A stretch of DNA of 64,000 bases, from assembly GCF_004138125.1 (NCBI RefSeq), contig NZ_RXHS01000001.1:248001-312000 (forward strand), in the 5' to 3' direction. Origin of the DNA: Seramator thermalis. Its GTDB lineage: Bacteria > Bacteroidota > Bacteroidia > Bacteroidales > Dysgonomonadaceae. Each line of letters begins with the position of its first letter. Positions within the stretch are counted from its first letter, which is position 1. The position numbers were made by a program, and so were the translations under genes. The notes below the pieces were generated by a model. It was not told the DNA's origin, made no database searches, and saw nothing but the letters and a program-made list of their open reading frames with translations. Of the stretch, positions 18 to 7,610 are shown in pieces.

Positions 18-479
18 ATGGACGAACTGAAACCCCGAAGCAACAGAAAGAAAAAATTTCTTGGCTGGGCTACTTTTATCATAATATTGGCATTGGGAAT
101 CTTTGTTTACGTACGTTTTTATTACGTATTCGGCACCGGCGTGAAGTCGGGCGAACTCAATTATCTCGTTTATAAAGGTGTGATCTTCAAAACCTACGAA
201 GGGAAACTCATTCAGTCGGGTTTTCGGGCCGAAAAATCGAGTGGTTTGCAATCGAATCAGTTCGAATTTTCGGTGGTGGATAAGGCAATTGCCGAAAAGC
301 TCATGCTTGCCGGGGGGAAAAATGTTCAGCTTCACTACAAAGAGTATTTTGCGCCCCTTCCGTGGCGGGGATACACGAAATACATTGTGGACAGCATCAT
401 CGACATCCGGGAACCTCAACCGATTCAGGAAATTCCATATCCTTATCAGGATAGTTTTCAGCCTGCCCCCGGACAATGA
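18..479 (+). CDS. Single-pass membrane protein of unknown function
   Basis: The protein has about 153 residues: a basic N-terminus, one hydrophobic segment at roughly residues 16-35, then an extracytoplasmic or periplasmic domain of about 115 residues ending in a Pro-rich tail. I do not recognise a catalytic motif. Short proteins of this layout occur in Bacteroidales and I recall them being labelled as hypothetical or mis-labelled 6-phosphogluconate dehydrogenase; no dehydrogenase fold is visible here. The ATG at 18 is preferred to a TTG nine bases upstream. Its stop overlaps the start of the RNase H gene by four bases (ATGA), so the two are probably translated together. The window begins just upstream, so the promoter is not visible. 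Confidence 0.75.
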   Translation: MDELKPRSNRKKKFLGWATFIIILALGIFVYVRFYYVFGTGVKSGELNYLVYKGVIFKTYEGKLIQSGFRAEKSSGLQSNQFEFSVVDKAIAEKLMLAGGKNVQLHYKEYFAPLPWRGYTKYIVDSIIDIREPQPIQEIPYPYQDSFQPAPGQ

Positions 480-4364: not shown

Positions 4365-4372
4365 CAAAGTTA
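4365..4372 (-). promoter_or_regulatory. Promoter -7 element for DUF4271-hemD
   Basis: The reverse strand reads TAACTTTG, matching TAnnTTTG. It overlaps the stop codon region of the upstream LOG-family gene, so DUF4271-hemD can be transcribed independently of metK-LOG. Confidence 0.5.
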
Positions 4373-5005
4373 CAACTCTTTTTCGTCATATTTGGAAAAC
4401 AAAGGATTCCACACGGGAAAATTATTTAGGGCATCAATCGCTTCTTCGGGCGTTGATACTACTTTCCACATTTGACAATAACCGGGGTTCATAAACTGCT
4501 CCGTCATCATTTTGTCCAAAAAGCTGAGCAATAAATCGTAATAACCGTTTATGTTCATGATGATGATGGGTTTGTTGTAAAGTCCCAATTGTTTCCAAGT
4601 GATAATCTCGGCTAACTCTTCGAGCGTCCCGATTCCTCCGGGCAATGCGATGGCTGCGTCAGATATTTCTGCCATCAGCGATTTGCGTTCGTGTATGGTA
4701 TCGGTAAAAATTGTTTCGGTTAAGTTTTCGTGACACCAACCCGCATCTACCATAAATTGAGGAATGATTCCGATGGCTGTTCCACCATGTGCAAGTGTGG
4801 AATCGTTGAGAGCTCCCATCAAGCCCTGTTTACCTGCACCATTAATCACCGAGATTCCTTGCTCGGCACATAATTGCCCCAGTCTCTTGGCTGCCTCAAA
4901 ATAAGTCGGATCGACTTGTGCGCTCGACGCACAATAAACGACAACTCCCGAATTTTGTGACCACGAAAATTCGGAAGTATCGTTTCCTGTTTTATTGACT
5001 TTCAT
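4370..5005 (-). CDS. LOG family protein (TIGR00730, nucleotide phosphoribohydrolase-like)
   Basis: Family members release cytokinin bases from riboside monophosphates or hydrolyse nucleoside 5'-monophosphates. Numbered from the ATG at 5005, the Rossmann-like fold shows the key pair HERKS (residues about 105-109) and the PGGIGTLEE motif at 122-130, which define the LOG/lysine-decarboxylase-like family. Lysine decarboxylase activity, a frequent old label, is not expected. The ATG lies seven bases after the metK stop; a TTG 15 bases further upstream overlaps metK and is less likely. It is probably co-transcribed with metK. Confidence 0.88.
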   Translation of the reverse strand: MKVNKTGNDTSEFSWSQNSGVVVYCASSAQVDPTYFEAAKRLGQLCAEQGISVINGAGKQGLMGALNDSTLAHGGTAIGIIPQFMVDAGWCHENLTETIFTDTIHERKSLMAEISDAAIALPGGIGTLEELAEIITWKQLGLYNKPIIIMNINGYYDLLLSFLDKMMTEQFMNPGYCQMWKVVSTPEEAIDALNNFPVWNPLFSKYDEKEL

Positions 5006-5012
5006 ATTTTTT

Positions 5013-6320
5013 CTACACAAGTCCGAATGCCTTTTTAACTTTATCTACGTAGTCGAGTTTTTCCCAAGTAAAGAGTTCAACTTCGCACACTACCGGCTCG
5101 GGCATGTAGCGCGACGAAAAAACTTTTTTCACCACTTGTGGTTCACGTCCCATGTGCCCGTACGAAGCCGTTTCGAAATAAATCGGATTTCGAAGTTTCA
5201 GTCGCTCTTCAATAGCTTTTGGACGCATATCGAAGAGTTGTTTCACTTTTTCGGCAATTTCGGCATCCGAAAGATTGACGTTGCTTTTGCCATATGTATT
5301 GACATAAATGCTCATCGGTTCGGCGATGCCAATGGCATAAGAAACCTGAATAAGAATTTCGGAAGCCACGCCGGCGGCAACCAAATTTTTGGCGATATGA
5401 CGAGCTGCATACGCTGCCGAACGATCAACTTTGGAGGGGTCTTTTCCCGAAAACGCGCCTCCGCCGTGCGAAGCTTTTCCTCCGTAGGTGTCAACGATGA
5501 TTTTTCTGCCCGTAAGTCCCGTATCTCCATGAGGCCCACCGATAACAAATTTGCCTGTAGGGTTGATATAATATTTGATATCACCCTCAAAAAGTTTATG
5601 AATATCTTTTTTGAATTTGTATTTTTCCCTTACCCGAGGGATGAGGATATTAATGATGTCTTCGCGAATTTTGTTCTGCATGGCTTTGTCTGCCTTGTCG
5701 GACGCTTCGGGAGAATTGTTTTCGGGCAAAATAAATTCGTCGTGCTGAGTGGAGATCACTATGGTATCGATGCGAAGCGGGGTTCCGTCTTCGGAATATT
5801 CGATGGTTACCTGTGATTTGGCATCAGGACGAAGATAGGGCATCAAGTGGAGCTCATTTTTGCGGATATAAGCCAATTCCTGCAACAACGCATGACTCAA
5901 ATCGAGCGGAAGCGGCATGAAATTTTCGGTTTCGTTGGTTGCATAGCCAAACATCATTCCCTGATCGCCAGCCCCCTGCTCCATGGGATCGGCTTTTTGG
6001 TCGACGCCACGATTGATGTCGTCCGATTGTTCATGAATGCTCGAAAAAACGCCGCACGATTGCGCTTCGAAACGGTATTCGCTTTTAGTGTAGCCAATTT
6101 TGGCAATTACGTTACGTGCCACTTCGGCCACATCCACATAAGTTTGTGATTTGACTTCTCCTGCCAGTATTACCTGTCCGGTAGTTACCAGCGTTTCGCA
6201 AGCTACTTTTGAGTTAGGGTCGTAAGCCAAAAACTCGTCAAGCAAAGCGTCCGATATTTGATCGGCTACTTTATCGGGGTGTCCTTCGGACACCGACTCG
6301 GATGTAAATAAATAGTTCAT
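5013..6320 (-). CDS. metK: S-adenosylmethionine synthetase
   Basis: Makes S-adenosylmethionine from methionine and ATP in the cytoplasm. Motifs seen are GHPDK at residues 13-17, GAGDQG at 116-121, and [15 protein letters not shown] around 286-300, covering the ATP, methionine and metal sites. The length of 435 residues fits Bacteroidota MetK, which is longer than the 384-residue E. coli enzyme. The upstream reverse strand carries a full promoter and a SAM-II-like aptamer, so product feedback through the leader is likely. A LOG-family gene follows seven bases downstream. Confidence 0.97.
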
Positions 6321-6404
6321 AATCGTTGTTAATCTGTAGGTGAAAAACAGCGGAATCGTGAAAGCGTACTAAGCAACAAAGGGAAGTCTAAAGCATTGCG
6401 GAGA

Positions 6405-6458
6405 ATGGTTTTAGCATTTTTTTCTGTGGTTGCAAGCAGCTCAAATCTGTCCACATCG
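6405..6458 (-). promoter_or_regulatory. Candidate SAM-II (metA-type) riboswitch in the metK leader
   Basis: On the reverse strand the segment reads, in order, a TGTGG arm (6455-6451), GATTTGAG (6447-6440), TTGCAA, a CCACA arm (6429-6425), an A-rich linker and GCTAAAACC (6416-6408). The order and spacing of stem, GATTT, TTGCA, closing stem and GCTAAAA match my memory of the SAM-II pseudoknot consensus. It sits 5' of metK, about 85 bases before the start codon, downstream of a good promoter. I could not verify the second pseudoknot helix by hand, so the class assignment is likely but not certain. Confidence 0.7.
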
Positions 6459-6471
6459 TCTTTCTTTTGCG

Positions 6472-6504
6472 CAAAGTTATAAATAAAACATCAGACTGCA
6501 AACA
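6472..6504 (-). promoter_or_regulatory. Promoter of metK
   Basis: The reverse strand shows TTTG (6504-6501), a 21-base spacer and TAACTTTG (6479-6472), close to the Bacteroidota TTTG-N19-TAnnTTTG consensus. The predicted start of transcription (about 6466) lies just upstream of the riboswitch-like element. Confidence 0.6.
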
Positions 6505-6571: not shown

Positions 6572-6587
6572 CAACGTGATTAAAAAT

Positions 6588-7610
6588 GTGATTGTATTGA
6601 AAAAACGGTTTTTCAAGATATCGTGTATCGTCTTTTTTTTCATTCCTTTATCTGTTGCTGCTCAGGATATGGCTTATCCGATTCAGGGCGACGGCATTTA
6701 TTCGTTTCTTCGACGTTGGAACAGACTCGATTCTACGTATGTACGCGAATTTGTTGAATTAAACAGAGATCGATTAAATGCTCAGGGTGGACTTGAATTA
6801 GGCACGGTTTATCTTATTCCCCCATTGCATCCCGGAGATGTTTATCCTCCAAAGCCCGTTACTTTTTCAACATTCGATCCGGCTCTTTTTGGAAGCGCAT
6901 ACGCCGATGTGCCCAAAAATTCTGACAAACTTAAAAATGCCTGTTTTTATATCGAAAGCGGACACGGAGGCCCTGATCCCGGAGCGGTAAGCAATTTCGA
7001 CGGAATCGAACTCCATGAAGATGAGTATGCTTACGATATTGCGCTTCGATTGGCCAGAAACTTAATGGCCGAAGGTGCTACGGTTTACATGGTCATTCAA
7101 GATCAGAATGACGGCATTCGTGACGACAAATTTTTGAACAATAACTACGATGAGACCTGTTTGGGCGAGCCTATCCCCCGAGGTCAGCTTGACAGGCTCA
7201 AACAGAGGGTTAATGCTGTCAATAAGCTTTATCGAGAGGATCGGAAAAAATTCGATTACCTCCGAGCTATTGCAATTCATGTTGACAGTCGCAACGAGAC
7301 TGAACAGATTGACGTGTTTTTTTATCATTCCGACAATCCGAAAAGTATAGCGTTGGCCAAGACCATGAGTGATGTTTTTCAACAGAAATATGACCAATTT
7401 CAGCCTTGGAGGGGATTTCAGGGAGTAGTCGGCCAAAGAGATTTGTATGTTATTCGCAATTACAAACCGGCATCCATTCTGGTAGAAGTCGGCAATATTC
7501 AGAATGATTTCGATCGGCGTCGCATTATCCTCGAAAACAATCGTCAGGCAATGGCTAACTGGATGACTCTCGGGTTTATAAAAGATTACGAAAACAATTT
7601 AACGAAGTGA
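6588..7610 (+). CDS. N-acetylmuramoyl-L-alanine amidase (amidase_3)
   Basis: Cleaves the bond between N-acetylmuramic acid and L-Ala in peptidoglycan in the periplasm. A signal peptide (FFKISCIVFFFIPLSVAAQ) is followed by a degenerate LysM-like region ending in GTVYLIPP, then the amidase_3 domain. Zinc and catalytic motifs seen are ESGHGGPDPGA, the HEDEYAYD helix, AIHVDS and the C-terminal VEVGNIQN. The start is uncertain: GTG 6576, GTG 6588 and TTG 6597 are all in frame and all give a signal peptide; the promoter position favours the later two. The stop overlaps the next gene by four bases. Confidence 0.88.
   Translation: MIVLKKRFFKISCIVFFFIPLSVAAQDMAYPIQGDGIYSFLRRWNRLDSTYVREFVELNRDRLNAQGGLELGTVYLIPPLHPGDVYPPKPVTFSTFDPALFGSAYADVPKNSDKLKNACFYIESGHGGPDPGAVSNFDGIELHEDEYAYDIALRLARNLMAEGATVYMVIQDQNDGIRDDKFLNNNYDETCLGEPIPRGQLDRLKQRVNAVNKLYREDRKKFDYLRAIAIHVDSRNETEQIDVFFYHSDNPKSIALAKTMSDVFQQKYDQFQPWRGFQGVVGQRDLYVIRNYKPASILVEVGNIQNDFDRRRIILENNRQAMANWMTLGFIKDYENNLTK

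Follow-up and report, generated by a model that had tools for sequence, protein, structure and literature searches.

SAM-II is a standard ribosome-binding-site-hiding riboswitch, but it is also frequent in Bacteroidales, a group in which the ribosomes generally disregard such a site; initiation in Bacteroidia is described as involving upstream adenines and low structure, and generally not Shine-Dalgarno sequences (PMC9976891). SAM_alpha (RF00521), the metA element first described in Alphaproteobacteria, has in common with the locus studied here a P1 stem and pseudoknot, a promoter near P1 and an association with methionine/SAM genes (PMC1273637). RF01726 (SAM-II long loops) is listed for Bacteroidetes and marine sequence in Table 1 of PMC2864571, a legend in PMC1273637 names the Bacteroides group and Bth for SAM-II, and SAM-II in Bacteroidetes is reported in PMC2258182. 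These sources show that neither the aptamer nor its occurrence in this phylum and setting is new.

By title or start of the abstract, no report of a SAM-II expression platform or competing strand in this phylum was found among the literature matches listed, and a mention in the supplement of PMC2864571 is possible. TaRTLEt covers Bacteroides RNA-seq, and its section 20 does not name SAM-II among understudied families with termination evidence (PMC12121620); the main text of a B. thetaiotaomicron transcriptome paper (PMC7366714) mentions neither SAM-II nor metK. The metK leader considered here, from a window (the whole stretch of DNA analysed) of 64,000 nucleotides, resembles RF01726 as described in being a full-length match over the cut-off, in coming from Bacteroidota, and in having a promoter right before P1 and a SAM gene downstream.

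The aptamer and promoter of the metK leader

The following features, all on the reverse strand, make up the locus.

6472..6502 (-), Bacteroidota-type promoter: TTTG at 6502-6499, 19 nt, TAACTTTG at 6479-6472 (sequence)
6401..6460 (-), SAM-II aptamer, RF01726 (Rfam, 58.4 bits)
6455-6451/6429-6425 (-), P1 stem, TGTGG/CCACA (sequence)
6447-6440 (-), aptamer segment GATTTGAG (sequence)
6435-6430 (-), aptamer segment TTGCAA, with an A-rich linker after CCACA (sequence)
6415-6407 (-), 3' pseudoknot strand GCTAAAACC (sequence)
5013..6320 (-), metK, methionine adenosyltransferase, 435 aa (TIGR01034, 501.8 bits; cut-off 309.4)
4370..5020 (-), TIGR00730-family (LOG-like) gene (184.4 bits; cut-off 96.35)

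When the 64-kb window was searched against all Rfam families, RF01726 matched 6460-6401 with 58.4 bits (cut-off 44; E 1.3e-08), over model positions 1-60 and without truncation. In the whole genome the same match (E 1.4e-10) is the only one of 18 above the cut-off, the best of the 17 weaker matches having an E of 0.03, so that no further SAM-II copies were found at that threshold, and L002-L008 were kept out of all counts; nor was a SAM-I element present at E <= 1. The P1 stem, GATTTG...TTGCAAC core, A-rich linker and GCTAAA strand all occur in order. As judged from these features, the metK-leader RNA is a SAM-II aptamer of the RF01726 type, which presumably binds SAM. A preliminary description of this DNA had proposed a SAM-II element before metK with product feedback, and the Rfam score supports that proposal as a family assignment. 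The elements that it listed (TTTG, TAACTTTG, TGTGG, GATTTGAG, TTGCAA, CCACA, an A-rich linker, GCTAAAACC and metK) are all present on the reverse strand in that order, the spacing between TTTG and TAACTTTG being 19 nt rather than the 21 nt given. The family that it suggested as a check, RF00521 (SAM_alpha), was rejected, since it scores 15.3 bits against a cut-off of 36; the appropriate model is RF01726.

Since the Bacteroidota promoter box lies at -12 to -5 (PMC9723704), transcription probably starts near 6467, a few bases before P1. This arrangement is widespread: of 247 loci, 223 have TAnnTTTG no more than 45 nt ahead of P1 (median 13 nt), compared with 2.6% of control windows further upstream, and the aptamer therefore lies near the mRNA 5' end.

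The 3' strand ends 86 nt before the metK ATG, in agreement with the earlier estimate of about 85 bases, and the spacer is 89 nt counted from GCTAAA. The ORF of the TIGR00730 family overlaps the metK end by 8 nt and is possibly part of the same transcript. The divergent neighbour at 6576-7610 (+) is N-acetylmuramoyl-L-alanine amidase-like, its best model scoring 55 bits, under the cut-off of 221.55. Early metK codons near SVSEGHP (6278-6294, -) contain an inverted repeat, GGTGTCC-GAA-GGACACC, possibly a codon-level hairpin.

Distribution and setting among relatives

Across the phylum, 69 of the 392 genomes searched have an RF01726 match (E <= 0.001); the figures are 131 of 198 for the order (E <= 0.01; 127 above the cut-off), 56 of 61 for the window's family and 2 of 2 for the genus. 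Among fetched loci, the nearest named relatives by MetK identity are Petrimonas sp. IBARAKI (L179, 85.5%) and a Bacteroidales bacterium (L256, 82.5%), followed by Fermentimonas (L214, 82.1%) and Proteiniphilum (L185, 81.3%); on this basis the window probably belongs to the Dysgonomonadaceae.

By a strict pattern, metK lies directly downstream of the aptamer in 146 of 161 loci. The 15 loci left out lack a strict aptamer plus metK match; of the six that gave a reading, five (L035, L161-L164) have metK and L075 a methionine-synthase-like protein. In the 146 leaders the spacer from aptamer to metK has a median of 77.5 nt (range 7-342), and in 38 leaders of the window's own family it spans 60 to 213 nt. 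A long gap between aptamer and start codon is thus the rule among relatives, and the distance in the window, regarded as unusual in the preliminary description, is ordinary. For the duplex analyses, one of the 146 loci was removed for a short spacer or long loop, leaving 145. Of at least 119 named stretches also considered, 107 were added, 8 did not fit the pattern and 4 were repeats of leaders in the set; among the 8, L170, L205, L269 and L270 visibly reach the metK start, L251, L259 and L273 end before it, and L173 lies ahead of a different gene.

Some loci depart from the common layout. In L173 (about 2090-2230, +) the SAM-II aptamer precedes a protein that by eye resembles an MFS-type membrane transporter, and not metK. 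L075 (G473:C269:790-2548) is a second SAM-II element in one genome, with a leader closely like the metK leader of its congener L074; its downstream protein (ILVLDGAMGTMIQ) resembles cobalamin-dependent methionine synthase. In L154 the spacer differs from that of most leaders by a long GC-rich inverted repeat (CACCCCAC...GTGGGGTG).

A spacer strand complementary to the aptamer 5' half

Placed side by side, the spacers suggested a diverged reverse complement of the aptamer 5' half. In a swap test, RNA duplex energies were calculated for each aptamer 5' half with each spacer, and own and swapped combinations were compared after removal of row and column means. The permutations ignore tree structure, other than in the set of 110 leaders described below, from which similar spacers were removed. 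Across 145 loci, the own duplex is better than the swapped ones by 2.4 kcal/mol (0 of 2000 permutations), and by dinucleotide shuffles 43% of these loci reach p <= 0.05. The z score for 5' half with spacer in this set is -11.5, compared with -4.3 for the 3' half, -2.6 for the upstream flank, -1.2 for the 5' half with the coding start and -0.4 with upstream DNA. The 107 further named loci (of at least 119) gave -8.1, the same controls in order being -3.5, -0.8, 0.2 and 0.5.

The signal is also seen after removal of redundancy. With a filter calibrated on shuffled sequences, 110 of the 252 leaders, without detectable spacer similarity, were kept, for which z is -8.9 (3' half -2.5, upstream -0.7, reversed spacer -1.9); a stricter filter kept 10 of 252, with z -3.5. 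For the 112 leaders that contain no T5 run, the swap test gave -12.1. As a caveat, the aptamer 3' half also scores in the controls, with z from -2.5 to -4.3. In other orders of the class (22 loci) the swap test is weak (z -2.2, 86 of 5000 permutations; controls 0.5 and -1.2).

Individual duplexes reach, for example, -23.1 kcal/mol in Porphyromonas loveana and -21.9 in Tannerella forsythia, with only -12.6 in Phocaeicola vulgatus. In the congeners L019 and L026, the aptamer reads GGAAAG versus GGAAGG and the predicted partner CTTTCC versus CCTTCC. These comparisons show that predicted complementarity between the spacer and the aptamer 5' half is leader-specific at the family and order level. 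Among loci of other orders (L009-L037, other than L015, L018 and L032), 12 of 22 have a spacer 6-mer complementary to the 3' strand ATGCTAAANN, compared with 16% of shuffles, which suggests that there the 3' strand may also be hidden in the SAM-free state.

The predicted pairing in the window's own family

The own-family set of 38 leaders comprises 33 of 57 family matches and five named loci (L179, L185, L214, L238 and L256) assigned by likeness; one fetched family leader was omitted as a repeat. G606's second match, from the family search, and G466's match, from the order search, were left out. In this set the swap test gave z -4.0 (0 of 5000 permutations), with controls at -1.0 and +1.7. Leaders with alignable spacers were picked by eye, 18 being aligned and 23 used in a duplex test that included the 5' flank. 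In the alignment, AAACAATGTGGA stands at the 5' end of many leaders, and GAACTGC or GAGCTGC is found in most aptamer loops; a distal block, e.g. GCAGTTC...TCCGTTGTTT, can pair with the 5' end plus the loop, and in many leaders a proximal GCATTT can pair with AAATGC of the aptamer 3' strand. The pairing extends to 18 bp around one bulge in L311, L317 and L214, the last two having two pairs more.

With the 5' flank included, 10 of the 23 leaders picked by eye reach p <= 0.05 (mean z -1.69), and L185, L290 and L305 have no duplex signal (p above 0.5). For two family members, L131 and L140, foreign aptamers fit better than their own, fractions of 0.80 and 0.74 of the others, respectively, being as good. 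Nine family-like leaders contain no perfect 7-mer complement.

Two further elements can be placed in the window by comparison with its family, or by folding.

6341..6375 (-), candidate anti-aptamer strand; predicted partners, mRNA 5' end and aptamer 5' half (6464-6432) (duplex, family homology)
6388..6414 (-), candidate local hairpin CTAAA/TTTAG, weak, which would hide the 3' pseudoknot strand (minimum-energy fold)

With the flank, the window duplex is predicted at -21.8 kcal/mol (p 0.060 against shuffled spacers; -21.6 and p 0.072 in a second run), and with the 5' half alone at -14.9 kcal/mol (p 0.25-0.28). The minimum-energy fold of the leader contains the 6375-6341 duplex. The whole-leader fold is not significantly better than shuffles (z -0.92, 39 of 200 as good), nor is it when only the spacer is shuffled (z -1.40, p 0.083), and for the 3' half alone the pairing is no stronger than in shuffles (p 0.71). 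Of aptamers taken from other loci, 9% fit the window spacer as well as its own does. For the congener L068, in which the same pairing is retained but statistically weaker (p 0.12-0.38), the figure is 33%. Since pairing in the window taken singly is not significant (p 0.06-0.28), the anti-aptamer strand is predicted there by homology and not by its own statistics: a block homologous to 6375-6341 is present in the aligned family leaders, and the window flank GAAAGACGATGTGGA and distal block TTCCGCTGTTTTTC, both off the commonest family form, are still predicted to pair. The family counterpart of the CTAAA/TTTAG hairpin is AAAUGC/GCAUUU.

Terminators on the same strand in some relatives

Strong terminator hairpins (-9 kcal/mol or lower, with a T run following) were found in 11 of 252 leaders, compared with 0.2% of shuffles; with the limit set at -5 kcal/mol, 17 leaders have a terminator-like hairpin. 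The window is not among these 17, and no intrinsic terminator was found on its leader strand between aptamer and metK. Six of the 11 strong hairpins share sequence with the anti-aptamer strand through their 5' arm: in L219, L237 and L274 the strand is itself that arm, and in L169, L182 and L188 the two overlap. The hairpins of the other five (L210, L218, L222, L265 and L278) lie off the strand assigned by best duplex; in these, with the exception of L222, the terminator 5' arm is a better match to its own aptamer than to sampled others. L108, missed by the terminator scan, has a similar arrangement in its predicted fold. The identity of the strand with a terminator 5' arm in some relatives points to the direction of control, i.e. 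with SAM present the strand would be free and the gene off.

A proposed competing-strand mechanism and its alternatives

We consider it probable that SAM-II turns metK down at high SAM by means of a competing spacer strand, and not by hiding a ribosome-binding site. The transcript would start a few bases before P1. Without SAM, the spacer strand 6375-6341 would pair with the 5' end and aptamer 5' half, so blocking the pseudoknot, and metK would be expressed; with SAM, the pseudoknot would capture its own 5' half and free the spacer strand, and metK expression would be lowered. In some relatives, the strand so released would serve as the 5' arm of an intrinsic-terminator hairpin. For the window, the G-poor released strand may in the last step be the place of Rho-dependent termination, or it may pair close to the start codon. 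SAM binding, the direction of control, the role of the strand in the window and the silencing step are all put forward here from comparative analysis. On balance, though with confidence little above even, we extend the proposal to Bacteroidales, and perhaps other orders: metK SAM-II would there work through an anti-aptamer strand that co-evolves with the aptamer 5' half; among the window's relatives of the same family, this strand would extend to the mRNA 5' end. Operating mostly without Shine-Dalgarno masking or an intrinsic terminator, it would be the class's own expression platform, terminators being present on the same strand in a few lineages.

In the textbook alternative, a ribosome-binding site lying in the aptamer or adjoining it would be covered by the pseudoknot when SAM is bound. 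There is precedent for this, in that such occlusion in the 3' helix is the SAM-II mechanism described (PMC10907184), and S. meliloti metA SAM-II controls translation starting 74 nt downstream (PMC9373788). The textbook mechanism is not readily applicable here, because Bacteroidia generally do not use Shine-Dalgarno sequences (PMC9976891), and a ribosome-binding site is not found beside the 3' strand, the start being 86 nt away and the median spacer in 146 leaders of relatives 77.5 nt; we regard it as very improbable. The suggestion in the preliminary description that the mechanism may differ is thus borne out by what is reported of Bacteroidia initiation and by the complementarity of relatives' spacers to the aptamer 5' half. 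Still less credence is given to a leader peptide, whereby the AUG in AAAAAAAUGCUAAAA would start a short ORF (nine codons in the window), the translation of which is blocked by SAM. In 239 of the 252 leaders an AUG in A-rich surroundings stands ahead of CUAAA. The leader ORFs have a median length of 18 codons, compared with 12 when the spacers are shuffled, and 28% versus 42% are of 12 codons or fewer. The AUG bases, however, belong to the aptamer consensus, and ORF length varies widely, with no stop before metK in 16% (21% in shuffles), so this reading is not favoured.

Within the competing-strand proposal, the two candidate last steps differ in what the freed strand would do. Were Rho to load, with SAM bound, on this strand and the G-poor spacer, the base composition would be appropriate, the spacers having 28% C versus 10-14% G at 20-40 nt after the aptamer, and the intrinsic terminators on the same strand in relatives indicate that it can feed termination. 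A pyrimidine-rich, G-poor spacer, however, follows of necessity from complementing a purine-rich aptamer, and a search by title and abstract found no report of Rho termination at such a leader; Rho-dependent termination is accordingly a tentative candidate, which we would sooner doubt than accept. Pairing of the freed strand with the metK start region, with SAM bound, appears somewhat less likely again. The anti-aptamer strand does fit its own start region (-20..+20) better than others' (z -5.6 for 137 loci, -5.5 for 232; upstream control 0.3), and TCCC is present in 72% of spacers before ATGGG starts versus 24-50% before other start classes. The gain is nevertheless small, at less than 1 kcal/mol, and is not seen among ATGGG starts by themselves (z -0.9, 91 loci). 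When the strand is at least 46 nt from the ATG, it has no advantage over the neighbouring segment (z -1.8 versus -1.5, 86 loci). For comparison, z is -2.0 with the coding stretch 20..80 and -3.0 with the remainder of the leader (energies capped at zero), and the window start, ATGAAC, has no clear pairing with the freed strand. Start-codon pairing is therefore suggestive and not robust.

Comparison with known systems

If the competing strand acts as proposed, a strand that tracks the aptamer would be a concrete answer to how SAM-II works in Bacteroidales, and would bear on leader regulation in a group without Shine-Dalgarno initiation. The spacer strand of the window lies outside the 60-position Rfam model of RF01726, and no mention of it was found in the accessible portion of PMC2864571. 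With respect to RF00521, many representatives have putative intrinsic terminators (PMC1273637), whereas here a strong one is present in 11 of 252 leaders. S. meliloti metA SAM-II is likewise a SAM-II element with a distant start codon, 74 nt downstream (PMC9373788). By contrast, it needs a Shine-Dalgarno sequence inside the riboswitch, and Bacteroidia ribosomes generally do not read such sites (PMC9976891).

The arrangement proposed for the metK leader can also be set beside that of leaders in which transcription termination is controlled. In classical terminator/antiterminator riboswitches, e.g. SAM-I leaders, a strand is common to the aptamer and an alternative helix. L219, L237 and L274, where the competing strand is the terminator 5' arm, are like these platforms. 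Most of the leaders studied here differ from them in keeping the competing strand without a terminator-like hairpin, which 17 of the 252 have.
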